The translations under genes were made by a program, and so were the position numbers. Below, in pieces: positions 1,133 through 18,549 of a stretch of DNA of 23,049 bases. Position 1 is the stretch's first letter; each line of letters starts with the position of its first letter. Source of the stretch: a virus; IMG/VR virus record IMGVR_UViG_3300037485_001799, positions 1 to 23,049 of that record; one strand, written 5' to 3'. Below the pieces are notes generated by a model. That model saw only the letters and a program-made list of their open reading frames with translations. It searched no databases and had not been told where the DNA came from.

Positions 1133-1224
1133 GAAAATTATTTAACTAAACACATGAACAAAATAATTTTCACAAAAACAAATTGTGAATAAAGCAAATT
1201 GTCACAATATGCAATGTGAAAATT
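1133..1224. repeat. Nested inverted repeats upstream of the replication gene (candidate origin or operator)
   Basis: The AT-rich gap 1033-1252 has three overlapping perfect inverted repeats: GAAAATTATTT (1133-1143) with AAATAATTTTC (1161-1171); AATTTTCAC (1165-1173) with GTGAAAATT (1216-1224); and, inside the second, ATTGTGA (1182-1188) with TCACAAT (1202-1208). AAATTGT is also directly repeated at 1180 and 1196. The position just before a replication-initiator-like gene fits an origin or autoregulatory operator. This is inference; no iteron family was recognised. Confidence 0.45.
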
Positions 1225-1252: not shown

Positions 1253-2305
1253 ATGATAAACAAATCACAAAATAATTCTAATTTCATTCAAAGCCAAATT
1301 TTTAATCCTTTCCACGGTGGAATTGCTCTTGGCGCAATATATGCAATGGATGACCTTGACGCTTATGAAACCTCTATCTTGGTTTTTATTGGAAGCAAGT
1401 TAGTTGTCCATGGTGATCATCACGCTTGGCTCAAAATGAGTAAGAGAGAAATAATCTCGGCAACAAAAATCGGTAGGTCTAAAGTCACACAAGTCATACA
1501 GACGCTTCTAGATAAATCCTACATATACGTCGAAAGCAACTTTGACGAATTCAATTCTCAACAAGAGAACACTTATTACCTATCTGACTACCTATTCGCA
1601 AAATACATAGAAATGTATGAGTCAAGACCAAAAAGACGCCAAAGTGTCACCACCCCTGCCGTATTACGGACCCCCCCCGGCCACGAGGCGGCCTGTTATA
1701 ATACTAGCGTAGCGTCTTTGTCTTCCGTTGTGGATTCTCTGGAAGCCGAGCGCAGCGAAGAAAAAGAGAATAAAAATAATAATATAGAATTAAAATACTG
1801 TGGGAGTGGAGTCGAAGACGAACCACTAAGACTATGTCAAAGTTGCCGGAATTTCGAGCAAAAAGAAGATTCCGGCTCTCCTTCGGATCGCTCGGCACAC
1901 AAATTAGAAGAAGTTGATTTGGGTAATTTTGAGGATATCCAAAAGAAGAAAATTAGTGCTAAAGATCAATTTGAAGCGAAGATAAGCCAAGTTGCTATAG
2001 ACCATCCTGAATATATCCCTCTGAAAGTTACATCTTCTCACAGAAAGATGATCGCTATCTTCAGAATAACCGATCCAAAAGTTAAGAAGAAAAGTTGGGT
2101 TAAGGACAACGATATCCATTTTTTCACCGATCAGGTTTTTGATAAGTACGGCGATATAGCGCACAACATCATAGATGTTTTGTATAAGGATATGAAAGAT
2201 ACGGGCAAATGTGGACAAATAGCATGGGACATCAACACAGCGTTTAAGAGAGTGGAAATTGCTTATTCGCGATACCTCAAAATGAAGGATAGAAAGAATG
2301 ACTAG
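1253..2305 (+). CDS. Replication-initiator-like protein with N-terminal winged HTH
   Basis: A 350-aa protein. Residues about 35-125 form a winged HTH: SKREIISATKIGRSKVTQV is the HTH, followed by a wing and a terminal YYLSDYLFAKY, as in phage replication O-like/HTH_36 proteins. Residues about 128-225 are a low-complexity linker encoded by unusually GC-rich DNA full of inverted repeats, with a C8 run at 1671-1678. The C-terminal domain (about 240-345) contains a KYG motif at 298-300 that faintly resembles the repeated unit of the next gene product. The ATG at 1253 follows AGAAGGA at a rather long 12-base spacing. The stop overlaps the next start by 8 bases. The expected role is origin binding and recruitment of the host helicase. 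Confidence 0.7.
   Translation: MINKSQNNSNFIQSQIFNPFHGGIALGAIYAMDDLDAYETSILVFIGSKLVVHGDHHAWLKMSKREIISATKIGRSKVTQVIQTLLDKSYIYVESNFDEFNSQQENTYYLSDYLFAKYIEMYESRPKRRQSVTTPAVLRTPPGHEAACYNTSVASLSSVVDSLEAERSEEKENKNNNIELKYCGSGVEDEPLRLCQSCRNFEQKEDSGSPSDRSAHKLEEVDLGNFEDIQKKKISAKDQFEAKISQVAIDHPEYIPLKVTSSHRKMIAIFRITDPKVKKKSWVKDNDIHFFTDQVFDKYGDIAHNIIDVLYKDMKDTGKCGQIAWDINTAFKRVEIAYSRYLKMKDRKND
1659..1896 (+). repeat. GC-rich palindrome cluster inside the replication gene
   Basis: This in-frame segment holds many perfect inverted repeats: CCGTA-T-TACGG (1659-1669); GGCC/GGCC (1679-1693); CTTCC/GGAAG (1722-1745); ATTCTCT/AGAGAAT (1734-1771); AGTGG/CCACT with inner GTC/GAC (1805-1827); GCCGGAAT/ATTCCGGC (1845-1876); and an outer GCCGAGCG/CGCTCGGC (1745-1752, 1889-1896). 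It encodes a hydrophilic linker. Base composition differs sharply from both flanks. It may be an inserted palindromic element. Confidence 0.5.
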
Positions 2306-2903
2306 AGAGTATGAACAACTAGATTCAGGAAGAAATGGAACAACTCCCGATTTCTTAGAAGCATTAGCGTTTATTCGGGCAATCTATTGGCCAAAACCCA
2401 AGGCCAAAGGGCAACTAGCCTATTTTGTAACTCCCGATGAAATCGACCATGTAACCATTAATGCACTAGCTCGTTATGGAATTGATACTATTAGGAAGTT
2501 TTATGAATATGCAGAAGCTAACGGAATGCTTGGAATGAGGGACAGTTGGGTTATATCGGCTGTAGAGGATGATATTGAAACATTCTTAGGCAGAAAAACA
2601 GAGAGTAAGCCTAATCCATCTCCAATCAAGAAACCTTTCACAGATGAAGAACAAGCTAGTCGTTATTTTCATTTGATCTACGCGCCTAATGTAATCAATG
2701 TTGATATCCTCAAAGAAAAGCCTATTGAACAAATAACGCTTCTTTCGCAAATGATGCTTAAAAAATATGGTTTTAAGGCAGTTGAAACCTTGATTGATTA
2801 CTGCATATTCCATCGTTTAACACCAAGGAAAATGGAAGTAACACAATCTCTGGTCGAAGATGATATGCGAGCAGCAATTAAATGGGCATGTAAAAGCCTA
2901 TGA
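2298..2903 (+). CDS. Internally duplicated protein, possible replication accessory factor
   Basis: A 201-aa protein built from two copies of one unit. Landmarks recur at a constant offset of 97-98 residues: IYWP at 29 and IYAP at 127; YG at 60 and 157; VEDD at 89 and 186. The copies (about 22-97 and 120-196) are joined by a polar, proline-rich linker. No catalytic motif is visible. The start overlaps the upstream replication gene by 8 bases and has a GGATAGAAAG site, so it is translationally coupled to it. By position it could be a helicase loader or replisome organiser, but I do not recognise the family. Confidence 0.65.
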   Translation: MTREYEQLDSGRNGTTPDFLEALAFIRAIYWPKPKAKGQLAYFVTPDEIDHVTINALARYGIDTIRKFYEYAEANGMLGMRDSWVISAVEDDIETFLGRKTESKPNPSPIKKPFTDEEQASRYFHLIYAPNVINVDILKEKPIEQITLLSQMMLKKYGFKAVETLIDYCIFHRLTPRKMEVTQSLVEDDMRAAIKWACKSL

Positions 2904-2949
2904 GTAAAAGTGTGTAGCCTACCTGACATATCTCTATGAAAAATTCCAT

Positions 2950-3049
2950 AGCGCACATTAAAAGCGCAATAGCGCAATATACCAAAAATACATAGTAACA
3001 ACAAATAAGTGTTGCTTGCATAGCAAACTCATGTTAATAAAACGCAACA
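2950..3049 (+). promoter_or_regulatory. Repeat-rich leader and candidate promoter of the Gp157-recT unit
   Basis: The 173-base gap has AGCGCA three times (2950, 2963, 2971) and two competing stems: TTGCT/AGCAA (3012-3026) or TGTTGC/GCAACA (3010-3049). A possible promoter is TTGCTT (3012-3017), a 17-base spacer and TAATAA (3035-3040). The promoter match is moderate. Confidence 0.35.
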
Positions 3050-3076
3050 TTGTTTTTCGTTGGAAAAGGAACATAT

Positions 3077-3631
3077 ATGCAGATAAAAGAATCATTATGG
3101 TCATTACAAGATCGGCTTTTAGAGTTAGAAGAAGAGATAAATTCGGATGATACCGAGCTAGAATTATTGCTAGGAGATATCAGTAAAAAAGTAGATGATA
3201 TCAAGTATGTAATTGACATCTTTGAATCAGAATCAGAGAGGTTTAAAAAATACAAAGATGATATGGACAATAGACAAAAATCTTTGCAAAAAGCTGCTGA
3301 CAGGCTTAAGGGTTATACTATAAAATGCCTAGAAGCGCATGGATCTACTTTTGAAAAAGGCACAGTTTGGGTAGCAAAAATTAGAGAGTATAAGAAGGTT
3401 GATACCTATCTTGCTAAACCCACAACAAATGATTTGCTAGCAATAGGTATGAAGCACAACATATTCAGAACAGTATATGACTGGGATAAGACCGAGCTAA
3501 AGAAGCTTCTTTCTGACGAGAACCATGATCCAGACTTAGACAGCTACGCCAAGATTGTAACAACCAAATCACTTAATTTTAGCGCAGTCAATGCAGCTTC
3601 AAAGCAAAAAGAAAAGGAAGTTAACGCATGA
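3077..3631 (+). CDS. Siphovirus Gp157-like protein
   Basis: A 184-aa protein. ATG 3077 is chosen because AAAAGGA ends 6 bases upstream; an in-frame TTG at 3050 lacks such a site. Residues 1-80 are a long charged coiled coil ending in KSLQKAADRLKGYTIKCLE. After it comes a smaller beta-containing domain. This matches the plan of phage Gp157 (Sipho_Gp157) proteins: an acidic helical N-terminus, a basic helix, then a short compact tail. These genes commonly sit beside recT or other ssDNA-annealing genes, as here. The stop overlaps recT (ATGA). The precise biochemical role of the family is poorly defined. Confidence 0.7.
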   Translation: MQIKESLWSLQDRLLELEEEINSDDTELELLLGDISKKVDDIKYVIDIFESESERFKKYKDDMDNRQKSLQKAADRLKGYTIKCLEAHGSTFEKGTVWVAKIREYKKVDTYLAKPTTNDLLAIGMKHNIFRTVYDWDKTELKKLLSDENHDPDLDSYAKIVTTKSLNFSAVNAASKQKEKEVNA

Positions 3632-4581
3632 ACGAACAAGCACAAACAGGAAAAGCATTACAGGTTAACAAGCTAGATACTCTCAAAGGTCTTTTAGAGA
3701 AGGGCAAAGGTTCCCTGGCTTCTGTTCTACCTAAGCACATGACCGCTGACCGCATGGTAAAACTCGCAACGGTAGCAGCTAGCAAAGATGCAAAGCTTCT
3801 CGATTGTGATCCCATGAGTATGCTTAGGGCTTTGATGGATTCAAGTCAGGTAGGGCTAGAACCTTTCACACCACTTCAACAAGCTTATATTATCCCTTAT
3901 TTCAACGGCAAAAAACGCCAAATGGAAGCACAATTCCAAATTGGATATAGAGGGCTAATCGAACTCGCAAGAAGAAGCGAGAAGCTAATTTCTCTGGAAG
4001 CGCATGTTGTTTATGAGAATGATGAGTTTCAATGCGAGTTAGGTCTAAATTCTGTTCTTATACATAGGCCATGTTGGGACGGTGACCGTGGAAAAATGAA
4101 ACTCGTTTATGCAGTTGCGAAACTTAAAGATGGTGGTTGTCAGTTTGACGTCATGGGCAGAAACTCAGTGGAAGAAATCAGGAAGAAATCAAAAAGTGGC
4201 GAAAGCGGACCTTGGAAAGATTATTTTGATGAGATGGCAAAGAAAACTGTCATTAAAAGACTAATCAAGTTTCTCCCATTATCTATTGAAGTGATGAAAG
4301 CCGTGGCTCTTGATAATAAGCATGAAGATGTAAGCGATGGTTTTGTAATTGATATCGATACTCCAGAAATTGAAGATATTGCGCTAGAACCTGTTAAAAC
4401 CGTACAGCAACTAGACAGTGAACAAAACTTTAGACAGCAAAAAGAGCAGCTACATAAAAGAATCAAGGAAGCTGATATTGAGCAGAATACTAAAAGCGAT
4501 TTGCTGAATAAACTCGTTGTCGTTACAGACAAAAAAGGAATAGATGATTTAGTCTCGATTATCATGCTGCATATCAAGTAA
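3628..4581 (+). CDS. recT: RecT single-strand annealing recombinase
   Basis: A 317-aa protein of usual RecT length. The conserved core is clear: a DCDPMSMLRALMDSSQVGLEPFTP-like stretch (about 55-79), then YIIPYFN and FQIGYRGLIELARRSE (about 102-118), and KKTVIKRLIKFLP near residue 210. RecT binds ssDNA, anneals complementary strands and promotes strand invasion in phage recombination. The C-terminal third is charged and less conserved, as is usual. It overlaps the Gp157-like gene by 4 bases and has AAGGAAG upstream. The usual 5'-3' exonuclease partner (RecE, YqaJ or lambda-exo type) is absent from this window. Confidence 0.93.
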   Translation: MNEQAQTGKALQVNKLDTLKGLLEKGKGSLASVLPKHMTADRMVKLATVAASKDAKLLDCDPMSMLRALMDSSQVGLEPFTPLQQAYIIPYFNGKKRQMEAQFQIGYRGLIELARRSEKLISLEAHVVYENDEFQCELGLNSVLIHRPCWDGDRGKMKLVYAVAKLKDGGCQFDVMGRNSVEEIRKKSKSGESGPWKDYFDEMAKKTVIKRLIKFLPLSIEVMKAVALDNKHEDVSDGFVIDIDTPEIEDIALEPVKTVQQLDSEQNFRQQKEQLHKRIKEADIEQNTKSDLLNKLVVVTDKKGIDDLVSIIMLHIK

Positions 4582-4697: not shown

Positions 4698-5241
4698 ATT
4701 TTGGAGGTAGGATATTTATCCCGTTCAAATTCGCAAACTCGATTAACTCTGGTACTGTTTTAATAGATTTCCCATTATCCAACGGTATCTCGGTTCCATT
4801 CTCAATCATCTTTATTAGCTCGTCAATGTGAGGGATTCTTCCACCCATGCGCAAAAACTCGCTCTTTGCAAGACAGGTTGGGCATAGCTCAAACTTGTCG
4901 GTATACATTTCCATGAAATCACTTTCCGGTATTACTCCAATCGGCTCAAACGATTTCTCATTGTAGAGCACAAAATCTCTTGGGTTAACTTGTACTGTTT
5001 GCCCATTTCCTAGGGTGCATCGTCCGTGGGTGCATACCCGAATCATTTTACTACCTTGTGAAAAGTAGTTTTCTACTTCACTTCCCCTTAAAATATCCTT
5101 GGGATCAAAGCTTTGCTGTGGTGGCGGTTGTGGTATGTCGATTAAGACATCGACCACGTTTGGCAAATTACTAAATGGTGTCCATTGTTTGGAATATACT
5201 CTTTTTGGAATTCTTGTAAATATCGTACCGTATTCAGCCAT
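4696..5241 (-). CDS. Accessory protein with Cys pairs, unknown function
   Basis: A 181-aa product from ATG 5241, which has AAAGGAAAG upstream on the minus strand; in-frame codons further upstream lack such a site. Visible features are a proline-rich PQPPPQQ (37-43), a pair C70/C75 in CTHGRC, and CPTC (120-123). The two Cys pairs could bind zinc or form a disulfide. It has no signal peptide and no membrane segment. The last 40 residues look helical and amphipathic. It is transcribed away from the two paralogous genes at 5352 and 5717 and shares a promoter gap with them, suggesting a common module. I do not recognise the family. Confidence 0.6.
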   Translation of the reverse strand: MAEYGTIFTRIPKRVYSKQWTPFSNLPNVVDVLIDIPQPPPQQSFDPKDILRGSEVENYFSQGSKMIRVCTHGRCTLGNGQTVQVNPRDFVLYNEKSFEPIGVIPESDFMEMYTDKFELCPTCLAKSEFLRMGGRIPHIDELIKMIENGTEIPLDNGKSIKTVPELIEFANLNGINILPPK

Positions 5242-5269
5242 TTTTAATGCTTTCCTTTCTAAACCTGTA

Positions 5270-5298
5270 TTGACGTTTAATATTTTTAGTAATATCAT
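5270..5298 (+). promoter_or_regulatory. Promoter of the duplicated gene pair
   Basis: TTGACG (5270-5275), a 17-base spacer and TATCAT (5293-5298): a good sigma-70-type match. An 11-bp perfect inverted repeat, TTTTTAGTAAT (5283-5293) and ATTACTAAAAA (5322-5332), has one arm in the spacer/-10 and the other just before the ribosome binding site. Its position suits a DNA operator, since the left arm lies upstream of the expected start of transcription. Confidence 0.6.
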
Positions 5299-5351
5299 AA
5301 AATTACATAAACAATCTATTTATTACTAAAAAATCAGTGAAAGGAAACTCT

Positions 5352-5654
5352 GTGGACCAAAACATTTATGACATCATTTTAGGTCAAATTGCTAACGATG
5401 TTGCTCTACAAGCAAGGGCGGCTAACTCGGCTTTTATCACTAACATGTCGGGCGTAAACGCTGTTCATGCTCGTTGCGCGCAAGTAATTGATAAAAGGAT
5501 TGCAGAGTATGACATTGAGGAAGTGAGGGCAACAACATCATTCGACCCAGCAAGTCAAAGTTTCTGGTTATCAAAAACTAATCAAGACAACGGTGCAGGT
5601 CAAAACGCAACTGGTCAACTATTAGAAATTTTAAGACAGATGCAAAAAAAATAA
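5352..5654 (+). CDS. Alanine-rich ~100-aa protein, paralog A
   Basis: A 100-aa product. GTG 5352 is preferred over GTG 5337: the site AAAGGA lies 6 bases before it, and the resulting N-terminus aligns with that of the downstream paralog. The sequence is helical and alanine/glutamine-rich (ANDVALQARAANSAF), then HARCAQVIDKRIAEYDIEE, then a more polar tail with DPASQSFWLSK and a helical end. It has no signal peptide, membrane segment or known catalytic motif. It matches the 5717 product at 53 of 67 core positions by my count. Function is unknown; the small size and duplication suggest a self-assembling or paired structural or effector protein. Confidence 0.7.
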   Translation: MDQNIYDIILGQIANDVALQARAANSAFITNMSGVNAVHARCAQVIDKRIAEYDIEEVRATTSFDPASQSFWLSKTNQDNGAGQNATGQLLEILRQMQKK

Positions 5655-5716
5655 ACCCTTAGCTAGTGCCGAACAGCTATCGGATATTTTAATTTTAACA
5701 AAGGAAGGGATAAATT

Positions 5717-6025
5717 ATGGCACAAGGAAGTGATGTTTTAGAATTAATTAATGGCCAGTTTGCTAATGATGTTGCATTGCAAGCGCGCGCGGCTAACTCA
5801 GCGTTTGTTACTAACATGGCAAGCGTACAATCAAATCATGCTCGTTGCGCGCAGGTTTTAGATAAGCGTATCTCTGAATACGATATCGAAGAAAACCGAG
5901 CGGCAACAAGTTGGGACCCAGCAAGTCAAAGCATGTGGCTATCTAAAGCGAATGCTGATAGCGGCAATGTAAACATTGGCACTGGCCTACTTCTCGAAAT
6001 TCTTCGCACAGCACAAGCAAAGTAA
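5717..6025 (+). CDS. Alanine-rich ~100-aa protein, paralog B
   Basis: A 102-aa product and tandem duplicate of the gene at 5352, with AGGAAGGGA before its ATG. The core from GQ.ANDVALQARAANSAF through DPASQS.WLSK is nearly the same. Differences cluster at residues 1-12, around SVQSNH and in the Gly/Asn-rich stretch before the C-terminal helix LLLEILR. Conservation of one Cys (HARCAQ), DKRI and EYDIEE in both copies points to selection rather than a decaying copy. The 62-base gap holds no convincing terminator, so both copies probably come from the promoter at 5270. A strong terminator follows. Function is unknown. Confidence 0.72.
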   Translation: MAQGSDVLELINGQFANDVALQARAANSAFVTNMASVQSNHARCAQVLDKRISEYDIEENRAATSWDPASQSMWLSKANADSGNVNIGTGLLLEILRTAQAK

Positions 6026-6075
6026 GTTGACTGTTTTCCGGTGATAGTCTATTTATAGCTGGTCAACGGGAAAAC
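6026..6075 (+). ncRNA. Possible pseudoknot in the 3' leader-out region
   Basis: Two perfect complementary pairs cross each other: GTTGAC (6026-6031) with GTCAAC (6062-6067), and GTTTTCC (6033-6039) with GGAAAAC (6069-6075). The order A-B-A'-B' gives an H-type pseudoknot in the RNA just before the terminator. No known RNA family is recognised. Confidence 0.35.
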
Positions 6076-6082
6076 AATTCGG

Positions 6083-6122
6083 ATAGTCGGAAGGAAGCAA
6101 TTCCAACCGACTATTTGTTTTT
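6083..6122 (+). terminator. Strong terminator after the paralog pair
   Basis: ATAGTCGG (6083-6090) pairs with CCGACTAT (6107-6114). Inside, GGAA/TTCC pairs around a GCAA loop, with an AA/AA internal mismatch, and a T-rich tail follows. It overlaps the stop codon of the convergent gene at 6111. The segment GATAGTC is also present at 6043-6049, offering an alternative partner for the right arm. Confidence 0.8.
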
Positions 6123-6566
6123 AAGCATATTGAAGATTTTTGTTTGGAGTGTAAATGTTTCAACGATTAATTCGTTGATTTCATTTTTACCGACAATTCC
6201 TGATTCATAGAGGGCATCAAGCTTTTTTCTTAGCACATTTACATCAGCATAAATGCTCTCAAGCGGCGCGGTTGAATACTGGCTAGTCGATTGGGCTTTT
6301 GGTGGGGTAGGGCTTTCGATTGGTGACATACAATTCCTTTCATTCGTTTCATTTGAGATATTCTCAATTGTCGGCTCTTTTGCAAGAGGCTCTAGGGCTA
6401 TTGGCTCTTTTCCTTCTTTGATAGATCTAATATTAGCGACTGTACGCGCTGCTTTATTAGCTCCATCTAAGATTGTGTCTAACATATGCTTCTGGTCTTC
6501 AGACTTGCTGTAAACCATAGTCTTTAAAATTTGTAACATGATTAGTTTCTCCAACATATCGTCCAT
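6111..6566 (-). CDS. Helical protein of unknown function
   Basis: A 151-aa product if translation starts at ATG 6566 (GGAAG about 12 bases upstream). TTG 6584 and ATG 6557 are in-frame alternatives, so the start is uncertain. The N-terminal third is helical and hydrophobic/charged (MLEKLIMLQILKTM), the middle is a proline- and serine-rich linker (about 65-105), and the C-terminal 45 residues are again helical with heptad-like leucines. This dumbbell layout suits a scaffold or adaptor. It converges on the duplicated gene pair and closes the accessory island. No family recognised. Confidence 0.55.
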   Translation of the reverse strand: MDDMLEKLIMLQILKTMVYSKSEDQKHMLDTILDGANKAARTVANIRSIKEGKEPIALEPLAKEPTIENISNETNERNCMSPIESPTPPKAQSTSQYSTAPLESIYADVNVLRKKLDALYESGIVGKNEINELIVETFTLQTKIFNMLKNK

Positions 6567-6602
6567 TGTGGTTTTTGCTTCCAAGTCATGTTAAGTTTTT
6601 GT

Positions 6603-6619
6603 ATACAGTAGATACAGTA
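6603..6619. repeat. Direct repeat ATACAGTA x2
   Basis: ATACAGTA occurs at 6603-6610 and 6612-6619, a 9-base period, in the gap between the divergent genes 6566 (leftward) and 6639 (rightward). It is a candidate regulator binding site, unproven. Confidence 0.3.
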
Positions 6620-6638
6620 TATGGGAAAGGGTTTATAT

Positions 6639-6842
6639 ATGCAAAATACAGTTTATTTTCATTTTGTGAAAAAGTTTCTGGTAAGGATAAATCAAAAATT
6701 CTGTGTCCATAGGTGGAGTTACAATAAGTCTGTCACTTTGGTAGGCCGTCGTTGTGCTGAATATGTTTGTGTGAAATGTGGTAAACTAGGGCATATAATC
6801 TATAGGCATGAATATGAAATTAAAAACGGGAAGGCTTTATAA
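6639..6842 (+). CDS. Small Cys/His-rich, zinc-ribbon-like protein
   Basis: A 67-aa product. ATG 6639 is chosen because GGAAAGGG lies 7 bases upstream; ATG 6621 contains that site and is less likely. C22/H24, C39 and CVKCGKLGH (C44, C47, H52) give enough ligands for one zinc site, and the protein is strongly basic. Small phage proteins with this CxxCGK pattern are common but their function is mostly unknown. It starts the run of small genes to 9532, and its end overlaps a 38-codon membrane ORF. Confidence 0.6.
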   Translation: MQNTVYFHFVKKFLVRINQKFCVHRWSYNKSVTLVGRRCAEYVCVKCGKLGHIIYRHEYEIKNGKAL

Positions 6843-6924
6843 AGCAGGGTTTTTGACTTGTTTTTCGATCACGGTTTTAGCTCTCTATTCGATTAATGAT
6901 ATTAACCGCCCTGCACTAAAGTAA
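6808..6924 (+). CDS. 38-aa single-span membrane peptide
   Basis: A short ORF (ATG 6808, or ATG 6814 with AGG at proper distance) overlapping the end of the preceding gene in another frame. It encodes a basic N-terminus (MNMKLKTGRLYK) and one hydrophobic segment, AGFLTCFSITVLALYSI, with positive charge on the N side. It resembles other tiny membrane ORFs in this block. It could be a chance ORF, but the membrane-span layout and nearby AGG make it plausible. Confidence 0.4.
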   Translation: MNMKLKTGRLYKAGFLTCFSITVLALYSINDINRPALK

Positions 6925-6950
6925 TTATACTCAAAACCGGAGTTAAGCAA

Positions 6951-7232
6951 GTGAAATTAGCCGCTAATGATGTTGTAAAGAAGCTTTCGCAAAGGGATAT
7001 ATGGGAACAACTTAACCAGACACAAGAAGAATGCGGCGAATTAGTGACCGCAATATCTCATCTAAGAAGAAAAAAGGGTGTAGATCCCTATGATTTGTTA
7101 TGTGAAGAAATAGCGGACGTTTTCATTATGATTAACCAGTGTTATTTATTTCTTGACAGCAAAAAAATTGATAAAAAAGTTAATGAAAAAATAGCACGAG
7201 CAAAAGAAAGGCTAGAAAATGGAACTATCTAA
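6951..7232 (+). CDS. MazG-like nucleotide pyrophosphohydrolase
   Basis: A 93-aa all-helical protein with the paired acidic signature of the MazG/dUTPase-like superfamily: EExxE at residues 26-30 and EExxD at 52-56, which coordinate magnesium. Members hydrolyse (d)NTPs to NMP and pyrophosphate. Phage versions are thought to clean the nucleotide pool or change (p)ppGpp-linked signalling; substrate cannot be read from sequence. The start is GTG 6951 with CGGAG upstream. The last 14 bases overlap the next small ORF. Confidence 0.8.
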   Translation: MKLAANDVVKKLSQRDIWEQLNQTQEECGELVTAISHLRRKKGVDPYDLLCEEIADVFIMINQCYLFLDSKKIDKKVNEKIARAKERLENGTI

Positions 7233-7335
7233 TCTATCTACTTTAGCAATTATAATTATTGCGAGTGTTAACGGCATGGCATGGGGTGCATTATTAACCT
7301 GCGCTATTTTATATTTCATAGGAAAAAATAGATAA
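7219..7335 (+). CDS. 38-aa membrane protein
   Basis: A short ORF starting inside the end of the MazG-like gene, with AAAGG 8 bases before its ATG, and ending TAATG into the next start. It encodes one long or two short hydrophobic segments (LAIIIIASV and AWGALLTCAILYFI) with a basic GKNR tail. The exact overlaps on both sides and the good ribosome site make it a real gene, likely co-translated. Function unknown. Confidence 0.65.
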   Translation: MELSNLSTLAIIIIASVNGMAWGALLTCAILYFIGKNR

Positions 7336-7538
7336 TGATTTCTATTCTGGTCACAATATCCATAGTTTGGATAGTTATATTAACTGTTTGTTTGCTAGGT
7401 GTAATGTCGCTTTATCAAGCACTAAAAATTGAACAAGGGCAAATTAATAAACTATTCGATAAAAGACATTGGTTTTTAGATGAAAAAATCACAATGGTAA
7501 ATGAGCGAGTCAACAACATGAAAATAAAATATAAATGA
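7335..7538 (+). CDS. Small protein with N-terminal membrane anchor
   Basis: A 67-aa product starting in TAATG with the previous gene. Residues 3-27 are a hydrophobic helix (ILVTISIVWIVILTVCLLGVM); the rest is a charged helix ending in basic residues. A short anchored protein with a cytoplasmic or periplasmic helix recalls Rz-like spanins or superinfection proteins in layout only. It overlaps the next gene by 4 bases. Function unknown. Confidence 0.65.
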   Translation: MISILVTISIVWIVILTVCLLGVMSLYQALKIEQGQINKLFDKRHWFLDEKITMVNERVNNMKIKYK

Positions 7539-7744
7539 AAGTTTATTTGCAGATAGTTTTGGCTCTATCAACATCATATCTGATCACATGTATCATATGC
7601 GAATTCATGCTTAAGGTTACTAAAAAACGAGATGAAGACTACGGCGGCGATGGTTCTTTGAATTGTCCACACTGCAAAAAACAGCTTAGCCTATGGCAAA
7701 CTCTCAACATGTCTCGTTGTCCACGCTGCAAACGCTTTTGGTAA
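7535..7744 (+). CDS. Membrane-anchored zinc-ribbon protein
   Basis: A 69-aa product. Residues 5-26 are hydrophobic, followed by KKRDED and a Gly-rich linker, then CPHC (44-47) and CPRC (62-65), a four-Cys zinc ribbon at the extreme C-terminus. It starts ATGA-coupled to the gene before, and is the last gene before an inverted-repeat-containing gap. A single-span protein with a C-terminal ribbon might hold a partner at the membrane; this is inference only. Confidence 0.7.
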   Translation: MKVYLQIVLALSTSYLITCIICEFMLKVTKKRDEDYGGDGSLNCPHCKKQLSLWQTLNMSRCPRCKRFW

Positions 7745-7748
7745 TATT

Positions 7749-7838
7749 CCCTATTAGTTGTCAAAATACACAATCTTTTTATTGAGATATCTATTCAAAT
7801 CATTTATAAGGCAAGTTGCGTTATCGCAACTAATAGGG
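7749..7838 (+). promoter_or_regulatory. Long-range 12-bp inverted repeat covering a ribosome binding site
   Basis: CCCTATTAGTTG (7749-7760) is perfectly complementary to CAACTAATAGGG (7827-7838), which contains most of the AGGGG ribosome binding site of the gene at 7846. A local stem GTTGCG-TTAT-CGCAAC (7815-7830) competes for the CAAC bases. A promoter lies between the arms. Only RNAs that start upstream carry the left arm and could fold over the ribosome site. Confidence 0.55.
7782..7810 (+). promoter_or_regulatory. Internal promoter for the 7846 operon
   Basis: TTGAGA (7782-7787), a 17-base spacer and TATAAG (7805-7810); each hexamer matches consensus at 5 of 6 positions. Transcription would begin near 7817, downstream of the left arm of the inverted repeat at 7749-7760. 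Confidence 0.6.
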
Positions 7839-7845
7839 GCGCTTT

Positions 7846-8040
7846 ATGCAATTAAAGGGATTTTTAAGAAATAAAACCGACAAGTTTATGAAAATCGGTA
7901 AGAAAAAAAGAAACTCTCAAAATGCTAAATATATTTTTATAGTTCTCGTTACTTGTGCAATTTACTCGATAGCATCATTAATAGTAGACTATTACAAAGA
8001 AAAACACGAATTCATCGAAAAAATTGAAAGGGAAAAATGA
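7846..8040 (+). CDS. Small single-span membrane protein
   Basis: A 64-aa product. The N-terminal 27 residues are very basic, then comes one membrane helix (YIFIVLVTCAIYSIASLIV) and a charged C-terminal helix. By the positive-inside rule the N-terminus is cytoplasmic. Its AGGGG site is part of the inverted repeat at 7827-7838, so expression may depend on which promoter made the RNA. It overlaps the next gene by 4 bases. Confidence 0.65.
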   Translation: MQLKGFLRNKTDKFMKIGKKKRNSQNAKYIFIVLVTCAIYSIASLIVDYYKEKHEFIEKIEREK

Positions 8041-8465
8041 TGCTTGAATCTTCGCAGCAATGCGATATTTGCCAAGGCCGAACGACTTGTTATTATTGCG
8101 GCAACATTCGAACGGAAAGAAAGACTTCAGCAAAAGAGCTAGAGCTAATAGACATCTATTACAATGGTGGGAAAATAGTTCATATGTCTTTAGAGGATTC
8201 AAAAGATTCTCAGGTTGAAACGCAGGAAATTACCAGGGATATGGTAAAAGATATCGGCGCAGTAATCACGACACATACCTATGAGGTTTATCCAAATTTT
8301 TTCCCTTTCTGGCCGGAAGCTGGAAAGTATGTTGATATTTTAGGTAAATTGCTGCAAAAGGATGAAACGGTTGGGAGAATTATCACAACATCAAACAAAA
8401 TGACGAATGGAAGAATAAGCAAAATTGTGGCTTTCGAGGTGAAACATGGAGAAGTTAGATCTTAA
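8037..8465 (+). CDS. Protein with N-terminal Cys4 zinc-binding motif
   Basis: A 142-aa product beginning in an ATGA overlap. Residues 9-21 carry CDIC then CYYC five residues later, a compact Cys4 motif like a zinc knuckle, followed by a helical and then beta-rich domain with no recognised motif. It could bind nucleic acid or a protein partner. Its last 20 bases overlap the HTH gene at 8446. Family unknown. Confidence 0.65.
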   Translation: MMLESSQQCDICQGRTTCYYCGNIRTERKTSAKELELIDIYYNGGKIVHMSLEDSKDSQVETQEITRDMVKDIGAVITTHTYEVYPNFFPFWPEAGKYVDILGKLLQKDETVGRIITTSNKMTNGRISKIVAFEVKHGEVRS

Positions 8466-8640
8466 CAAAGAACAGATGAGAATTGTCAATCTTGCTATAG
8501 CTAAATGTGGTTCTGTGGACACGCTAGCAGCTAGGCTAGGTGTTTGTAGGCAAACCGTATTTAAATGGAGAAGCGGAGTACACAGCATGAAATGGTCAAT
8601 GGCTATGGAATTAATGAAATGGGCAAATAGGAAAAAATGA
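8446..8640 (+). CDS. Cro/YdaS-like helix-turn-helix protein
   Basis: A 64-aa protein almost wholly made of a lambda-repressor-type HTH: SVDTLAARLGVCRQTVFKWRSG (about 23-44) is the classic helix-turn-recognition helix, with TVFKW reading the DNA. Length and layout fit Cro or YdaS-type phage regulators. GAGGTGA precedes the ATG, which lies inside the end of the gene before. A second protein of the same type is encoded at 11109-11279. Its operators may be the paired palindromes at 10115-10165 and 10629-10679; this is a guess. Confidence 0.75.
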   Translation: MEKLDLNKEQMRIVNLAIAKCGSVDTLAARLGVCRQTVFKWRSGVHSMKWSMAMELMKWANRKK

Positions 8641-8643
8641 TAA

Positions 8644-8814
8644 ATGGTAAGCAAAGGGGATGGTGAGGCGTTTTTAGTCGCTTGTATGGTAGCAGCTTTT
8701 TTAATTGGGATAGGCGCGTTTGGCGGCTGGACAGCTAACAGTTGGTATCATTCTGATAAATATTCTGTGTGTCGCGAATATGAGAAGTTTAGGAATAAGG
8801 AAAATAAGGAATAA
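8644..8814 (+). CDS. 56-aa small membrane protein
   Basis: A short ORF directly after the HTH gene, with AGGA about 11 bases upstream of ATG 8644. It contains one hydrophobic segment (AFLVACMVAAFLIGIGAFGGW) and a charged C-terminal tail with one Cys. It lies in an otherwise empty stretch between coding genes, which supports it being real. Function unknown. Confidence 0.6.
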   Translation: MVSKGDGEAFLVACMVAAFLIGIGAFGGWTANSWYHSDKYSVCREYEKFRNKENKE

Positions 8815-8882
8815 ACTTGCAACAAAATAGTTAAAACGGTATGCATGTTTTTTCGGATAAAACACTATGAGAGGTAATAAAA

Positions 8883-9233
8883 ATGAGAGAAGCGGTTGCT
8901 ATAGTTAGTAAAGACGAAGATCTAATTGTTGTTCAAAAAGAAATGAAAGAATGCCGTGGTGTTCTTGATGAGTTAGAAAAAGAAATTAATCTTAGGGCTA
9001 GAGAAATTGTTAAGACAAAAATTAATCCGCTGTGGGAAAAGCTAGTCTCGGTTTGTAAAGAGAAGGGATATCTTCCAGCCGATTTTGAAGAACACAAATA
9101 TAGTGTTGGTTTAGAAGACGGTGTGGTTTTCATAGAGGAAAAACTTGGCGCTGATGAAGAAATGAGCGATTTGGTTAAGAGAGTTATGTTTAGAGATGAT
9201 GAAGTTGAAGATATAGAGTGTAAGGAAGCATAA
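8883..9233 (+). CDS. Acidic helical protein, unknown function
   Basis: A 116-aa product with GAGAGGT upstream of ATG. The first 60 residues are a charged helix (VQKEMKECRGVLDELEKEI), the rest is mixed, and the tail (DDEVEDIECKEA) is strongly acidic. Acidic small phage proteins sometimes mimic DNA or inhibit host enzymes, but nothing here shows that specifically. A GTG-started gene follows two bases after its stop. Confidence 0.65.
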   Translation: MREAVAIVSKDEDLIVVQKEMKECRGVLDELEKEINLRAREIVKTKINPLWEKLVSVCKEKGYLPADFEEHKYSVGLEDGVVFIEEKLGADEEMSDLVKRVMFRDDEVEDIECKEA

Positions 9234-9235
9234 CC

Positions 9236-9532
9236 GTGTATTTAGTTATAAATAAATCTATTACGCTCAATCTAGATCTATATTTATACTATCAAATTAC
9301 TTCTACACAAACTAGAGGTGACGCTAGAGACATAGAGCTAGTAGTCTGCTTTGGTAAATTAGTTAAAGGTGAGTTTGATAGCTATATTCTTTGTAGTGTG
9401 CATCATTCTAAAGCAGATGAAACAGTTGCAAGAATCAAAACTATGATCGATAGTGCTATTGTCATGGGTAGGTATCTTATAGATATATCTCATGATTTGA
9501 CGATTATGAATAATAACGGGTTTGATATCTAA
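9236..9532 (+). CDS. Hypothetical 98-aa protein
   Basis: Starts at GTG 9236 with AAGGAAG 8 bases upstream, inside the end of the previous gene. It has alternating beta-like segments (SITLNLDLYLYYQIT, IELVVCFGKLV, SYILCSVHH) and a helix, suggesting a small alpha/beta fold. There is no signal peptide or known motif. It ends in a 4-base convergent overlap with the RuvC-like gene. Function unknown. Confidence 0.6.
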   Translation: MYLVINKSITLNLDLYLYYQITSTQTRGDARDIELVVCFGKLVKGEFDSYILCSVHHSKADETVARIKTMIDSAIVMGRYLIDISHDLTIMNNNGFDI

Positions 9533-10029
9533 ACACACTCAATAAATAGCAAATCATTTGGAACCGTGACGCTGTTATCTTGCCCTGCAAAGCGCGCAAT
9601 AAAGAAAGCGTCTATAATTCCATCATCTCCTTTTTGAATCTTCCCAAAACTCGGATTAAGCCTTTTAAACGCTATAAGGCTTTTTTCTTTTGCAGTTAAA
9701 TCTTTAGATCCCTGACCAACATGCGCTTTGGCTTGCCATTTTTTGGGTGTTACAAGCTGATTAGGGTGTTTCTTGATCATTAGTCTCATCTGATTATAAT
9801 AACCGCCAAACGCAAAATTGTTAGGAATTCCCCAAATTTTATTAGAATGTACTTGCTCCAAGTAAATGAAATCAGCGCAGCGAAAATTGAACATAGCATT
9901 AATCAAATCAACTTCAAGTAGTCCATCTTCGCAATATGGAATTTTCATGTATCTACAGGCTTTTTCATATGTATCTATCTCAACAATAGCGCCACGATTT
10001 CCGGGATCGATGCCAATCAAAATTGTCAT
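9529..10029 (-). CDS. RuvC-like Holliday junction resolvase
   Basis: A 166-aa leftward protein. The RNase H-like active site is readable: D8 in GIDPGNRGAI, E58 in YLEQ, and D135/D136 and D140 in GDDGIIDAFFIARFA. Length and motif order match phage RuvC-type resolvases, which cut four-way and branched DNA, so it would debranch replicating DNA before packaging and complete RecT-mediated recombination. The start has GGAAGGAAT upstream on the minus strand. It stands alone on this strand with its own promoter. Confidence 0.88.
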   Translation of the reverse strand: MTILIGIDPGNRGAIVEIDTYEKACRYMKIPYCEDGLLEVDLINAMFNFRCADFIYLEQVHSNKIWGIPNNFAFGGYYNQMRLMIKKHPNQLVTPKKWQAKAHVGQGSKDLTAKEKSLIAFKRLNPSFGKIQKGDDGIIDAFFIARFAGQDNSVTVPNDLLFIECV

Positions 10030-10058
10030 TATTTTATTCCTTCCATTGTTTGTAAATA

Positions 10059-10087
10059 ATATTACATAGATACCGTTTTTTTAGCAA
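10059..10087 (-). promoter_or_regulatory. Promoter of the RuvC-like gene
   Basis: On the minus strand TTGCTA (10087-10082), a 17-base spacer and TAATAT (10064-10059). It is divergent from the promoter at 10114. Confidence 0.45.
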
Positions 10088-10113
10088 TTATTTTTATTTT
10101 CGATAAAAAAAGA

Positions 10114-10165
10114 TTGACACGAATGTCATGCTATACTATAACTCGGACATGGCACTAATGCCATG
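10114..10165 (+). promoter_or_regulatory. Promoter with paired operators, copy 1
   Basis: TTGACA (10114-10119), 17 bases and TATAAC (10137-10142). Two inverted repeats with the same 4-base centre flank it: TGACA-CGAA-TGTCA (10115-10128) over the -35, and CATGGCA-CTAA-TGCCATG (10148-10165) over the start site. Copy 2 at 10628-10679 has the same arrangement, so one repressor should control both. Confidence 0.7.
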
Positions 10166-10185
10166 ACGGACTAAGGAAAAACAAA

Positions 10186-10377
10186 ATGAAAAGAATGATA
10201 GATAAATCAAAAATGTCAGGCGTGAAAATACTAGGAGAATTCAAGTTTGTTGATAACGGTGCTTGTTGGGCAGTTTATAAAGAAATTAATGGAGCATATA
10301 TCTATCAATATACGACAAGTAAAATATATAAAGAATCAAACATTAACCTATACAATAGCGTAAAAGAAAAAATGTAA
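10186..10377 (+). CDS. Small hypothetical protein under operator copy 1
   Basis: A 63-aa basic product with AAGGAA before its ATG. It has short beta-like stretches (VKILGEFKFV, CWAVYKEI, YIYQYT) rich in Tyr and Lys, and no recognised domain. It is the first gene behind a repressible promoter, so it is likely made either early or in lysogeny. Function unknown. Confidence 0.6.
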   Translation: MKRMIDKSKMSGVKILGEFKFVDNGACWAVYKEINGAYIYQYTTSKIYKESNINLYNSVKEKM

Positions 10378-10421
10378 AAAACTCTTTAGACAATTACCAA
10401 GATGAAACAAATGGGTAAATC

Positions 10422-10631
10422 ATGAAAATTAAACTAACAAATTCCTTTCATAATACAGAAGCGTATGTGATCACAAAAGACGGAAATTTATCTTCTAGGC
10501 AAGTAAAAGCAGCAAGGAAAAAGCTTTGTCCATATGGCAATTGTCAATGTTCTGGACCTCTTGGAATTAGAGGAGGCGATATTGAAGGAATAGTTTGGCA
10601 CGATCATACGGCTACAATAAAAAACTATTGA
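10422..10631 (+). CDS. Small phage protein with FHNT and Cys motif
   Basis: A 69-aa product. FHNTEAYV near the N-terminus, then a basic helix SSRQVKAARKKL and CPYGNCQCSGPLGIRGG. I have an impression of a recurring small phage family with FHNT followed by a Cys-rich LGxRG segment, with no known role; this is memory, not a search. The Cys residues could bind a metal. Its stop overlaps the -35 box of operator copy 2, so the two units are tightly packed. Confidence 0.6.
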   Translation: MKIKLTNSFHNTEAYVITKDGNLSSRQVKAARKKLCPYGNCQCSGPLGIRGGDIEGIVWHDHTATIKNY

Positions 10632-10679
10632 CACAAATGTCATGTTGTTATAGAAGTTGTTCATGGCACTAACGCCATG
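10628..10679 (+). promoter_or_regulatory. Promoter with paired operators, copy 2
   Basis: TTGACA (10628-10633) with a weaker -10: TAGAAG at 17-base spacing or TATAGA at 15. TGACA-CAAA-TGTCA (10629-10642) and CATGGCA-CTAA-CGCCATG (10662-10679, one mismatch) repeat the layout of copy 1 at almost the same spacing. Confidence 0.65.
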
Positions 10680-10698
10680 TACAACGAAAGGAACGAAG

Positions 10699-10905
10699 AT
10701 GCAAACAGCTAGCCATAGATTGATCAATAACATGATTTGTAACCGCATGGGAAAGATCGAAGATTTAACACAAAAGATGTTTCATGAAGCACTATCTAAA
10801 GAATTCGAAGCTGAATGCATCAATGCAACGGACACAACGAACATAGGTCTTAAAAATTCAATCATTGCAAGACTTGATACGATAATCGAACAACTAGAAT
10901 ATTAA
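10699..10905 (+). CDS. Small helical protein under operator copy 2
   Basis: A 68-aa product. ATG 10699 is chosen because AAAGGAAC lies 6 bases upstream; an in-frame TTG at 10657 would lie inside the operator. It is mostly helical and charged, ending in IIARLDTIIEQLEY, a leucine-zipper-like tail. No recognised domain. It heads a three-gene unit ending in an HTH gene. Confidence 0.6.
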   Translation: MQTASHRLINNMICNRMGKIEDLTQKMFHEALSKEFEAECINATDTTNIGLKNSIIARLDTIIEQLEY

Positions 10906-10915
10906 GGAGAAAAAC

Positions 10916-11107
10916 ATGTTTCAAATCATAAAAACCAAAAACGAAGAAACAAACAACGACCAATGGACATTACAAAGGGTAGACGGGAAAAGCTGGGAAG
11001 ATGGTGTTGTTGGATGGAATTTTGACTACACAGATGAAGGCGGGCTAGCTGCTTTAAACTGCATGGAAAGACTAAATAAAAGATATAACCTAGAAGTTAA
11101 GGAATAA
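10916..11107 (+). CDS. Small acidic hypothetical protein
   Basis: A 63-aa product with AAGGAGA before its ATG. It has beta-like N-terminal strands, aromatic-rich WTLQRVDGKSWEDGVVGWNFDY, then a helix AALNCMERLNKRY. It is followed one base later by the HTH gene. Function unknown. Confidence 0.6.
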   Translation: MFQIIKTKNEETNNDQWTLQRVDGKSWEDGVVGWNFDYTDEGGLAALNCMERLNKRYNLEVKE

Positions 11108-11108
11108 T

Positions 11109-11279
11109 ATGAAAGTTGAACAACTCATAAAAAACAGCATAAAGGTAACTAAGACTAACATTGCACTAGCTGCTTACCTAGGCTGTAACGAAAGAACAAT
11201 ATACCGATGGTTAAGCGGCCAATTTGTTCCTAATTCTAAGTTTGTCATGAAAATGATAGAGCTAACCAAAAATCTGTAA
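11109..11279 (+). CDS. 56-aa Cro/YdaS-like helix-turn-helix protein
   Basis: A short ORF with AAGGA 6 bases before ATG. NIALAAYLGCNERTIYRWLSG (about 17-37) is a clear HTH that shares LAAxLG....T.(Y/F).W.SG with the protein at 8446. It is the last gene of the unit driven by operator copy 2, a natural place for an autorepressor of that operator pair. No CI-sized repressor is in the window. Confidence 0.72.
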   Translation: MKVEQLIKNSIKVTKTNIALAAYLGCNERTIYRWLSGQFVPNSKFVMKMIELTKNL

Positions 11280-11283
11280 AAGG

Positions 11284-11619
11284 CTACTTATTCGAGTAGT
11301 ATTCTGTGGCTCTTGCCAAAGCCATTGCTTCAATTCTCTTCAGCATGAAACTTGTACAATCATCTTTTACCTTGCGATTGTGAAGCTTGTAATCACGCAA
11401 ATGACCGATCACTAAATGACAATTCCTGCACAAAGTAATCAAATTCTTCTCATTCAATTCTAATTCAGGGTGTATATGAAAAGGTTCTATATGATGAACC
11501 TCTAACTTGCTATCAGCGGCGCAAGCTGTGCATCTCTTATTAATCTTCAGAAAATTAGCTCTCACTGAATGCCAATCGGGACTTCTTCCTTGGAAAGCAA
11601 ATTTTATTCGATTAAACAT
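11284..11619 (-). CDS. HNH endonuclease
   Basis: A 111-aa protein with the beta-beta-alpha-metal fold: zinc-type C30/C33, LEVHHIEPF (H42, H43), NLITLCRNCH (N59, C64, C67, H68). HNH nucleases next to terminase genes assist DNA cutting or packaging in several cos-type phages. Here it is encoded on the opposite strand to terS, which is less usual. AAGGAG precedes the ATG at 11-12 bases. Its start overlaps the end of the zinc-ribbon gene, so the two form a unit. Confidence 0.85.
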   Translation of the reverse strand: MFNRIKFAFQGRSPDWHSVRANFLKINKRCTACAADSKLEVHHIEPFHIHPELELNEKNLITLCRNCHLVIGHLRDYKLHNRKVKDDCTSFMLKRIEAMALARATEYYSNK

Positions 11620-11845
11620 TGCCGCAACACTCCTTATTAAGTGGTATGATATCTACTATAAGCTGTTTTGGTGTTCCTACTTCTACAAACGCTTGCATCG
11701 TTGGTAAAGGCAGAATTGTCAATCCTCTTGAACAATCCGAGCAGCGATACATAAAAGAGTTTTGAAGCTGGCCTATGATTGTTGAAAATTCTCTATCGCA
11801 ATATGGGCAACTTGCATTAACTAAAAATTCTTTATACGCAAACAT
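11612..11845 (-). CDS. Zinc-ribbon protein
   Basis: A 77-aa product with C13PYC16 and C35SDC38, a four-Cys zinc ribbon, then a hydrophobic/proline-rich tail. It resembles small Com-like zinc-finger proteins of phages in size and spacing only. GAGGT lies before its ATG at 11845. It is co-transcribed with the HNH gene, overlapping it by 8 bases, and divergent from terS. A role with HNH is inferred from position. Confidence 0.65.
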   Translation of the reverse strand: MFAYKEFLVNASCPYCDREFSTIIGQLQNSFMYRCSDCSRGLTILPLPTMQAFVEVGTPKQLIVDIIPLNKECCGNV

Positions 11846-11880
11846 GGCTTACCTCAAAACTCTTAACATTTACATAGTTA

Positions 11881-11889
11881 TGATATAAT
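11881..11889 (+). promoter_or_regulatory. Extended -10 promoter of the late operon
   Basis: TGA-TATAAT (11881-11889) gives a perfect -10 with the TGn extension. Upstream, TTAACA (11863-11868) is 15 bases away, a poor spacing, so the extension probably carries recognition. It lies 38 bases before the terS ATG. Confidence 0.55.
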
Positions 11890-11927
11890 AATAATAAACC
11901 ACACAATAAATTAAAAGGATATATTTA

Positions 11928-12368
11928 ATGGCTTATAAAAATAGGAATGCAAAGAAACCACCAAAGGATTCACCGTGGAAAGACAACGGCGGTGATCGCG
12001 AAGGGTCAGGAAGACCACCGATAAAATTATCTGATGAGTGGTGGCATCTTCTAGAAAAATACGCTTTGGCAAATTGTACTAAAGAAGAAATTTGTGGCTT
12101 TACTGACATTCATCTTGAGACGCTTTCTAAGCTTATACAAGAGCGATATTCAGTTGATTTTTCGACGTGGAAAGAAAGATTTTCATTCGGTGGTAAAGCT
12201 AGTTTGCGAAGAAGACTTTACCATATTGCTATGGGAGATAGTAAAGACGCATGTAAAGCGGCTATCCATCTTTCAAAGCACTATCTAGGGATGAAAGATA
12301 GCTCACAAGTTGATTTTGGCGACAAGCCTTTTATGTTTGCATATAATCAGGATGATAATGCAGAGTAA
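11928..12368 (+). CDS. terS: Terminase small subunit
   Basis: A 146-aa protein just before TerL, as expected. The N-terminus is basic and Gly-rich (GGDREGSGRPP), followed by helices with an HTH-like stretch (KEEICGFTDIHLETLSKLI) that would bind the packaging site, and a second helical part, KAAIHLSKHYLGMKD, a motif often near the end of small terminase subunits. AAAGGA precedes the ATG. It overlaps terL. Confidence 0.8.
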   Translation: MAYKNRNAKKPPKDSPWKDNGGDREGSGRPPIKLSDEWWHLLEKYALANCTKEEICGFTDIHLETLSKLIQERYSVDFSTWKERFSFGGKASLRRRLYHIAMGDSKDACKAAIHLSKHYLGMKDSSQVDFGDKPFMFAYNQDDNAE

Positions 12369-13842
12369 CGCAGCACTAAAACTAGATGATATTGACTATT
12401 ATTGGAAACGAAGAGACTCGATTTCAACCAATAGCGGCGTGACGATTGACACGTTTAAGCCGGTCATTCCATGGCAAAAAAAATGTCTTTTTGATATTCG
12501 GCGAAAATATGACTACTCGCTTGGAAAGCATGAGGTTTTGCTTTCTGGCTCGGTTGGATCGGCTAAAAGTATCTTTCTAGCTCACCTTGCTATAAGCCAT
12601 TGCCTTATGTTTTCTAAGGCATGTGTAGGGCTATTTAGAATGTCTTTCCCTGATTTAAGGGACACTATTTTTAAAGAGATAGTTGACCATTTAGTTTGCG
12701 ATGGCTTGGTAGAAGGACGAGACTATTGGATCAATAACACTCGTTGTCAAATTCATTTTAGAAATGGATCTAGTATTATATCACGATCTTTTACCGATGG
12801 TAAATACACCAAGGTAAGATCACTCAAGCTATCCATGGCAATCTTTGAGGAAATGACAGAATTTAGGGGAAAGCACGAACAGGCGATTAAAGAGGTTAGG
12901 AATAGGCTAGGGCGAATTCCAGAAGTTTGTAAATATGAATGTTTGCTCATTGGCGCCACTAACCCTGATGATCCATCTCACCATCTCTATGAGTATTATA
13001 TAGAGGGTTCTGAAAAGCATGAGACGAGACACGTCTATTATTCCCTGACATTTGATAACCCGTTTCTACCTAAATCTTACATTGTAGGCATCATCAGGGA
13101 TCTTGACGAAAAACAAGTATTAAGAATGATTTTTGGACGCTGGCTAGAACTAAGGTCAGAAGTCATTTACTATCAATTCGGTGATCACAATGTTGTCAAA
13201 AAAGCCTATGAAGTTGATTTAGCATTACCTGTCCACATCTCATGGGACTTCAACATAGGCAATGGAAAGCCTCTCTCTTGTGCTGTATTCCAAGTAAAAG
13301 ATTGCGGTGACTACTTTACCTTTCATTTTTTTAATGAGGTTGTCGTTGAAGGTATGCGTACCTTAGATAGCTGTGAAGCATTGGCGGATAAAGGAATTCT
13401 AGATAATTTTTCACATGAAATCATTGTGCATGGTGACGCGGCTGGCTCACATAACGACACAAGAAGCAAAAAAACCGACTACGATATCATCATGGGCTAT
13501 CTTCAAAATTATGAAAGAAAAGACCAAAAGAAACTCATTGTTTCAAAGAAAATACCACTAGCTAATCCACCAATTCGAACAAGACATAATAAAGTTAATG
13601 GTGTTTGTAAAAATGCACTAGGCGAAATAATGCTTTTTATATATCAAGGGTGTAAAGTTTTAATCAAGGGCATGAAACTAACAAAGCTAAAAGATAAGGC
13701 CGGTTTGATTGAAGATGATTCAAACGACTATCAGCATATCACAACGGCTTTAGGCTATGGGATCATAGCTTCCGAACGGTATTACTCGAATAAGAAAACT
13801 TTGGATGATGCAATAAAGAGAAGGAATATTGACTATGAGTGA
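12358..13842 (+). CDS. terL: Terminase large subunit (packaging ATPase and nuclease)
   Basis: A 494-aa protein. ATG 12358 has AGGA 5 bases upstream and overlaps terS; an upstream TTG at 12310 is not credible. The ATPase domain has Walker A GSVGSAKS (64-71), Walker B AIFEE (161-165) and coupling motif GATNP (199-203). The RNase H-like nuclease has D297 in SWDFN, D360 in HGDAAG and a third acidic cluster at D454/D457 before YQHITTALGYGI. It pumps DNA into the prohead and cuts the concatemer. It is complete and of usual length. Confidence 0.95.
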   Translation: MQSNAALKLDDIDYYWKRRDSISTNSGVTIDTFKPVIPWQKKCLFDIRRKYDYSLGKHEVLLSGSVGSAKSIFLAHLAISHCLMFSKACVGLFRMSFPDLRDTIFKEIVDHLVCDGLVEGRDYWINNTRCQIHFRNGSSIISRSFTDGKYTKVRSLKLSMAIFEEMTEFRGKHEQAIKEVRNRLGRIPEVCKYECLLIGATNPDDPSHHLYEYYIEGSEKHETRHVYYSLTFDNPFLPKSYIVGIIRDLDEKQVLRMIFGRWLELRSEVIYYQFGDHNVVKKAYEVDLALPVHISWDFNIGNGKPLSCAVFQVKDCGDYFTFHFFNEVVVEGMRTLDSCEALADKGILDNFSHEIIVHGDAAGSHNDTRSKKTDYDIIMGYLQNYERKDQKKLIVSKKIPLANPPIRTRHNKVNGVCKNALGEIMLFIYQGCKVLIKGMKLTKLKDKAGLIEDDSNDYQHITTALGYGIIASERYYSNKKTLDDAIKRRNIDYE

Positions 13843-15241: not shown

Positions 15242-15242
15242 A

Positions 15243-16221: not shown

Positions 16222-16246
16222 TTAGTTTATCATGAAAGGAAGAGTT

Positions 16247-16888: not shown

Positions 16889-16904
16889 ATAAAGGGGAAA
16901 CATT

Positions 16905-17786: not shown

Positions 17787-17797
17787 TTGAGGATTAA

Positions 17798-17989: not shown

Positions 17990-18016
17990 AACTTTCGAAA
18001 CAAAAGGGGTTTAAAT

Positions 18017-18530: not shown

Positions 18531-18549
18531 ATATATTTAAGGTTAAAAC

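Follow-up and report, generated by a model that had tools for sequence, protein, structure and literature searches.

In this work, the segment at positions 1659-1896 of a bacteriophage record (IMGVR_UViG_3300037485_001799, whose whole stretch of 23,049 bases is here called the window) emerged as a candidate for the central part of a replication origin of the lambda type that lies within the initiator gene of the phage itself, a reading that we consider probable. The earlier note had put forward a lambda-like origin as one of two explanations of the segment, and it is the one favoured here: the position in the linker of the initiator, the repeats in the relatives, the AT-rich tract and the pairing potential argue for it, although the iteron-like units of the window itself are weak. 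The case for an origin draws more on the relatives than on the window. The genes concerned are the following.

621-977: winged-helix gene of 118 aa, just upstream of the initiator-like gene, with matches to replication initiator families.
1253..2305, + strand: initiator-like gene of 350 aa with a winged-helix N-domain, a disordered linker and a helical C-domain (open reading frame, weak PHROG matches, AlphaFold2).
2298-2903: 201-aa gene, downstream of the initiator-like gene.

Other genes of the window include Gp157/Gam-like, RecT, Holliday-junction resolvase, terminase and portal genes. A homolog of lambda P was not recognised downstream of the initiator-like gene; no protein family matched the 201-aa product encoded there at E values up to 0.1. 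Searches for close relatives among viral and genome contigs returned the sister phage alone (L002, record G001), and the A2 profile gave no match in seven terminase-sharing records. A GCCGG...CCGGC stem followed by TTTT, terminator-like by eye, lies after the winged-helix gene at 1001-1034; a terminator scan, which covered short loops only, did not return it. Farther on, positions 5337-5654 and 5717-6025 hold a duplicated gene pair with 73% DNA identity, and the distantly related records G002 and G005 have these genes paired likewise.

The PHROG matches of the window protein (P0001) to O-like and DnaD-like initiators are weak (E 0.008 and 0.049), and the sister protein (P0002) has a better one (4e-5). 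AlphaFold2, run on four homologs with low overall confidence (mean pLDDT 52), predicted a winged helix at residues 24-123 (pLDDT mostly 70-90), a disordered linker at residues 124-259 (pLDDT below 50) and a helical C-domain from about residue 261. In Foldseek searches of the PDB, the DnaD N-domain was among the top folds with an E of about 2e-3, amid many winged helices, and phage O and DnaD proteins were among the matches in viral models. The family of the C-domain was not recognised. The sole named relative in the phage and plasmid protein searches was the N-domain of a protein from a Pigmentibacter ruber plasmid (AP029161), with 29.7% identity to the window initiator over 29% of the query. 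The predicted N-domain fold of the window protein is that of the winged-helix phage initiators of the PHROG O-like and DnaD-like groups, and its gene has the same setting, beside a wHTH gene, a Gp157-like gene and RecT; it differs from these groups in lying under the usual thresholds, its best E being the 0.008 given above, and in its unrecognised C-domain. The segment 1659-1896 corresponds to residues 136-215 and is therefore wholly inside the predicted linker, between the winged-helix and C-terminal domains. Along the gene, the winged-helix domain is followed by candidate palindromic units, an AT-rich tract and hairpins, the latter three in the DNA of the disordered linker.

1622..2029, + strand: coding sequence of the linker, residues 124-259 (AlphaFold2 disorder; DNA fold z -6.3 against synonymous shuffles).
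1656..1672, + strand: candidate palindromic unit 1, containing CCGTATTACGG (arm pattern; same place as the palindromic units of the homologs L045 and L104).
1678..1694, + strand: candidate palindromic unit 2, GGCCACGAGGCGGCC, which follows unit 1 at a 22-bp step and has 5 mismatches in 17 to the L045 unit TGGCCGCGAGACGGCTA.
1741..1762, + strand: 22-nt run GGAAGCCGAGCGCAGCGAAGAA, identical in L045, holding the 16-mer GCCGAGCGCAGCGAAG (1745-1760).
1758..1797, + strand: A-rich/AT-rich tract, a candidate for the element that unwinds; at 0.10 GC, no other 40-mer of the gene is as low.
1845..1876, + strand: hairpin GCCGGAAT / ATTCCGGC with a 16-nt loop; in the sister the arms are the same and 5 of the 16 loop bases differ.
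1881..1896, + strand: right outer arm CTTCGGATCGCTCGGC, the same in the sister and not seen in L045.

In the account of PMC7466680, the lambda origin lies in the middle of gene O and consists of iterons, which are imperfect inverted repeats, together with an AT-rich tract, and two iterons plus this tract are enough for unwinding. The window resembles the origin in gene O of lambda and its Stx-phage relatives in the mid-gene location between the DNA-binding and C-terminal parts, and furthermore in candidate units with the form of imperfect inverted repeats, in the AT-rich tract alongside them and in the concentration of the gene's hairpin potential at this place, as that account has it for lambda (PMC7466680). 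On the other hand, the window has two weak 17-bp units 22 bp apart, whereas lambda has four iterons built on 19-bp inverted repeats; it has extra GC hairpins past the AT tract, which do not figure in what PMC7466680 describes for lambda; and no DNA sequence homology was seen between the two. We hypothesize that the N-terminal winged-helix domain would bind the palindromic units encoded at the start of its own linker (1656-1694) and that the strands would open at the AT-rich tract right after them (1758-1797). The conserved 22-nt motif would border this opening tract, and the hairpins would then follow. Since the linker protein is disordered, the linker DNA would be free to serve as binding and unwinding site.

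The earlier note had described the segment as a GC-rich cluster of seven or more perfect inverted repeats that encodes a linker without a stop. The arms and the open frame are confirmed: the reading frame is open throughout, and the outer 8-bp pair is present (GCCGAGCG at 1745-1752 and CGCTCGGC at 1889-1896) and can be lengthened to arms of 16 nt with 81% complementarity, 120 nt apart, with a second perfect pair formed by the hairpin arms at 1845-1852 and 1869-1876. The number of repeats and the uniform GC-richness did not hold. Six perfect inverted repeats with arms of at least 6 were counted, where window tiles of the same size have a mean of 7.1 and 123 of 192 such tiles hold at least six, so the count is not above chance and was dropped as evidence. 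GC-rich arms are somewhat unusual, the segment having two of them, a number reached by 7 of the 192 tiles. The GC content of 0.479, which 34 of 2281 overlapping tiles attain, exceeds the mean of 0.376 but is patchy, with 0.358 at 1761-1880, and the most AT-rich 40 bases of the whole gene lie at 1758-1797. The outer 16-nt pair was also considered as a conserved stem and rejected, as the sister alone keeps it; L045 has the left arm, and the right arm was not seen there.

The linker shows more pairing potential than its coding content requires. The predicted single-stranded DNA fold of 330 nt has -47.8 kcal/mol against -29.3 +/- 2.9 in synonymous shuffles within the segment that keep the protein and the codon make-up fixed (0 of 60 shuffles reach it). 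When 57 coding segments of the window were compared, the most extreme was the one at 1583, which overlaps this stretch (z -4.8); the next had -2.97, and the mean was -0.6 with an sd of 1.1. Against dinucleotide shuffles, the z of the DNA fold over 1640-1910 is -2.7 (1/200). The fold excess is lower in the relatives, with z of -0.9 in the sister, -0.8 in L045, -1.9 in G002 and -2.5 in L104. The hairpins might act in the mRNA instead, for example by slowing translation or by binding a regulator between the two domains. L045 and L104 do have a common hairpin where their linkers are best conserved (33/37 and 29/33 columns identical), in which, by eye, two pairs are changed on both sides (columns 4/44 and 12/18) and one pair is broken in L104. 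However, this hairpin is not present in the window, and the RNA fold of the window is weaker than the DNA fold, with a z of only -1.3 against dinucleotide shuffles (20/200), so a function in the mRNA seems improbable to us.

Within the window, the candidate units are less distinct than in the homologs. The pattern GCC[AG]N4[AG]CGG, derived from the arms of L045, occurs at 1658 and 1680 only in the 23 kb on both strands, and the two units are alike mainly in their arms. By three weight matrices, unit 2 ranks 2, 5 or 7 in the window, and unit 1 falls outside the top 8 in every scan. Direct repeats were not significant in the window gene (a repeat score as high arises in 190 of 500 shuffles) or in the sister gene (81/500), and base-pair covariation of five 17-bp units was not beyond shuffles (172/500). 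A palindrome-like 17-mer resembling the linker units lies at 800-816, inside the upstream winged-helix gene, and outscores them in two of the three weight-matrix scans of the window; its counterpart in the sister (L002 4580-4596) has the top score of that record by two of three matrices. The 22-nt run is the longest exact run common to the window and L045 genes, the second longest having 11 nt. Given the peptide, the probability of such identity from synonymous codons alone is about 8e-4. The run borders the edge of the AT-rich tract, and its 16-mer is absent from L104.

In IMG/VR, 74 stretches contain the exact 16-mer GCCGAGCGCAGCGAAG; the GC content of the flanks is 45% or more in 71 of these, and its median over the full set of 74 is 62%. 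The three AT-rich ones are the sister (L081), the diverged homolog L045, which carries the 16-mer at the same linker place as the window, and L078, where it lies outside any such gene. L045 was first found via this exact 16-mer, a selection in its favour, but a peptide pattern independent of the 16-mer recovered it among nine loci, three of which match the profile (the sister, L045 and the new homolog L104). Protein identity to the window initiator is 34% for L045 and 32% for L104. Scanning viral and genome contigs with the A5 profile returned no relative, but the viral scan also missed the known homologs, so this result has little weight. The initiator of L045 has a small gene upstream too, comparable to the 118-aa winged-helix gene of the window. 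As a positional equivalent of the initiator, G005 10379-11269 was considered; it has no similarity and was not used.

Repeats are found in the linkers of the relatives. In L104, a 31-nt sequence occurs in two perfect copies at an offset of 33, each copy holding the palindrome TAGTCGGGAGACGACTA. In L045, the facing palindromic units TAGCCGTTTCCCGACCA and TGGCCGCGAGACGGCTA lie 21 bp apart and jointly form a 38-nt palindrome whose arms are 84% complementary. The initiator of G002, which has no sequence similarity to that of the window, has four of the six copies of CCGCACAA in its 35-kb record inside 135 nt of the linker; the order there is CCGCACAA repeats, AT-rich tract (lowest-GC 40-mer, gene position 465) and GC-rich hairpins. 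Repeats of the GCAAAACCTGCA type recur in 22- and 44-bp steps in the gene of the Pigmentibacter plasmid (P0003). In L045, L104 and G002 (0/500 each) and in P0003 (9/500), 8-mers recur beyond what synonymous shuffles give, and in all four genes the repeats are located just after the winged-helix or DNA-binding domain. Farther on in the L045 linker, at 10547-10594, there is a tandem 24-nt pair containing C runs seven long, which read GGGGGGG on the strand of the gene.

The other explanation offered earlier was an in-frame mobile palindromic element of the Rickettsia type that had invaded the gene. Such elements (RPEs) are about 150 bp long and able to fuse in frame with genes, as given in PMC10969869. 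The segment is like them in being palindromic, in frame and coding for a hydrophilic stretch; moreover, the 16-mer is present in two diverged gene lineages, absent from a third, and found once in the AT-rich contig L078 outside the gene family. It is unlike them in that the phage records yielded no dispersed copies, no empty site was found, and the host is not known to be Rickettsia. When homologs with and without the segment were compared, none lacked the linker: all four full homologs have one of 104-143 residues, GC-richer than the rest of the gene. A second full copy was not found in the window, G001, G002 or G005. With up to 4 mismatches, the 16-nt arm matched only itself and its partner arm in the window and sister, and G002 and G005 gave only matches with 3-4 mismatches. 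Besides the sister, no examined locus aligns over more than about 31 nt of 1697-1910, and the IMG/VR matches to the 16-mer are mostly in GC-rich sequence. We therefore regard an invading element as very improbable.

Comparison with the sister phage places a boundary inside the linker. The identity of the two phages is 99.6% over 4784-23049, 99.1% over 1697-4487 and 93% over 1-1124 of the window. Between 1125 and 1696, blastn gave one 100-base sister match only (1173-1271, 87%), and it gave none over 1271-1697. As the N-domain and the linker start differ and the rest is nearly the same, there is a recombination junction in the linker near 1697. This junction and the exact 22-nt run kept with L045 are among the points in favour of the in-gene origin. 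In 1697-1896, the sister differs at 19 positions. None of the 19 touches the two arm pairs, which make up 48 of the 200 nt compared (P 0.004), and in the right part alone, 0 of 11 changes between the sisters fall in arms (P 0.014); the unchanged arms are suggestive, but the arms had been chosen after the sequence was read.

The strongest rival to an origin inside the gene places the origin, or an operator, just upstream of it.

1167..1222 (1167 +, 1183 -, 1199 +, 1214 -): array of four TTTTCACAA-like boxes that alternate in orientation, located upstream of the initiator gene; a candidate for an operator or for an alternative origin.

In this explanation, the linker would be no more than a disordered tether that changes fast and accumulates repeats and GC-rich codons through drift and recombination. 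The four boxes are 15-16 bp apart and alternate in orientation, and their sequences differ between the sisters along with the N-domain, the upstream wHTH protein being nearly unchanged; at the place of the array, the sister phage has boxes of a different sequence, of the CAAATTGC type. Moreover, the amino acids of the linker vary freely, 10 of the 15 codons changed between the sisters in 1697-1896 being non-synonymous (hand count). Against it, the linker repeats in four relatives and the excess folding of the window linker go beyond synonymous shuffles, the exact 22-nt run is kept with L045, and no such array was seen by eye upstream in L045 and L104. We consider the upstream boxes, with the linker as a mere tether, a possible but doubtful explanation. 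That the array could be the true binding site counts against the in-gene origin, as do the outer 16-nt pairing, which L045 does not keep, the absence of the 16-mer from L104, the weaker folding excess of the relatives, the failure to recognise a lambda P homolog and the dissimilarity of the G002 initiator.

Beyond the in-gene origin itself, a wider scheme may be imagined, which we think unlikely. In it, origins inside initiator genes would form a family that diverges fast, and the winged-helix domain of each phage type would be paired with the palindromic units of its own linker. Initiator specificity and origin would be swapped jointly at one recombination spot near 1697, and the conserved 22-nt motif that borders the unwinding tract would be a loading or priming site beyond the lambda model. 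If the in-gene origin is true, the lambda plan, with an origin hidden in the disordered linker of the initiator, would extend to environmental phages of little sequence similarity. It would then be possible to find origins in metagenomic phages by looking for linker repeats, an AT tract and excess hairpins in winged-helix initiators, and it would suggest how an initiator and its origin stay matched through phage recombination.
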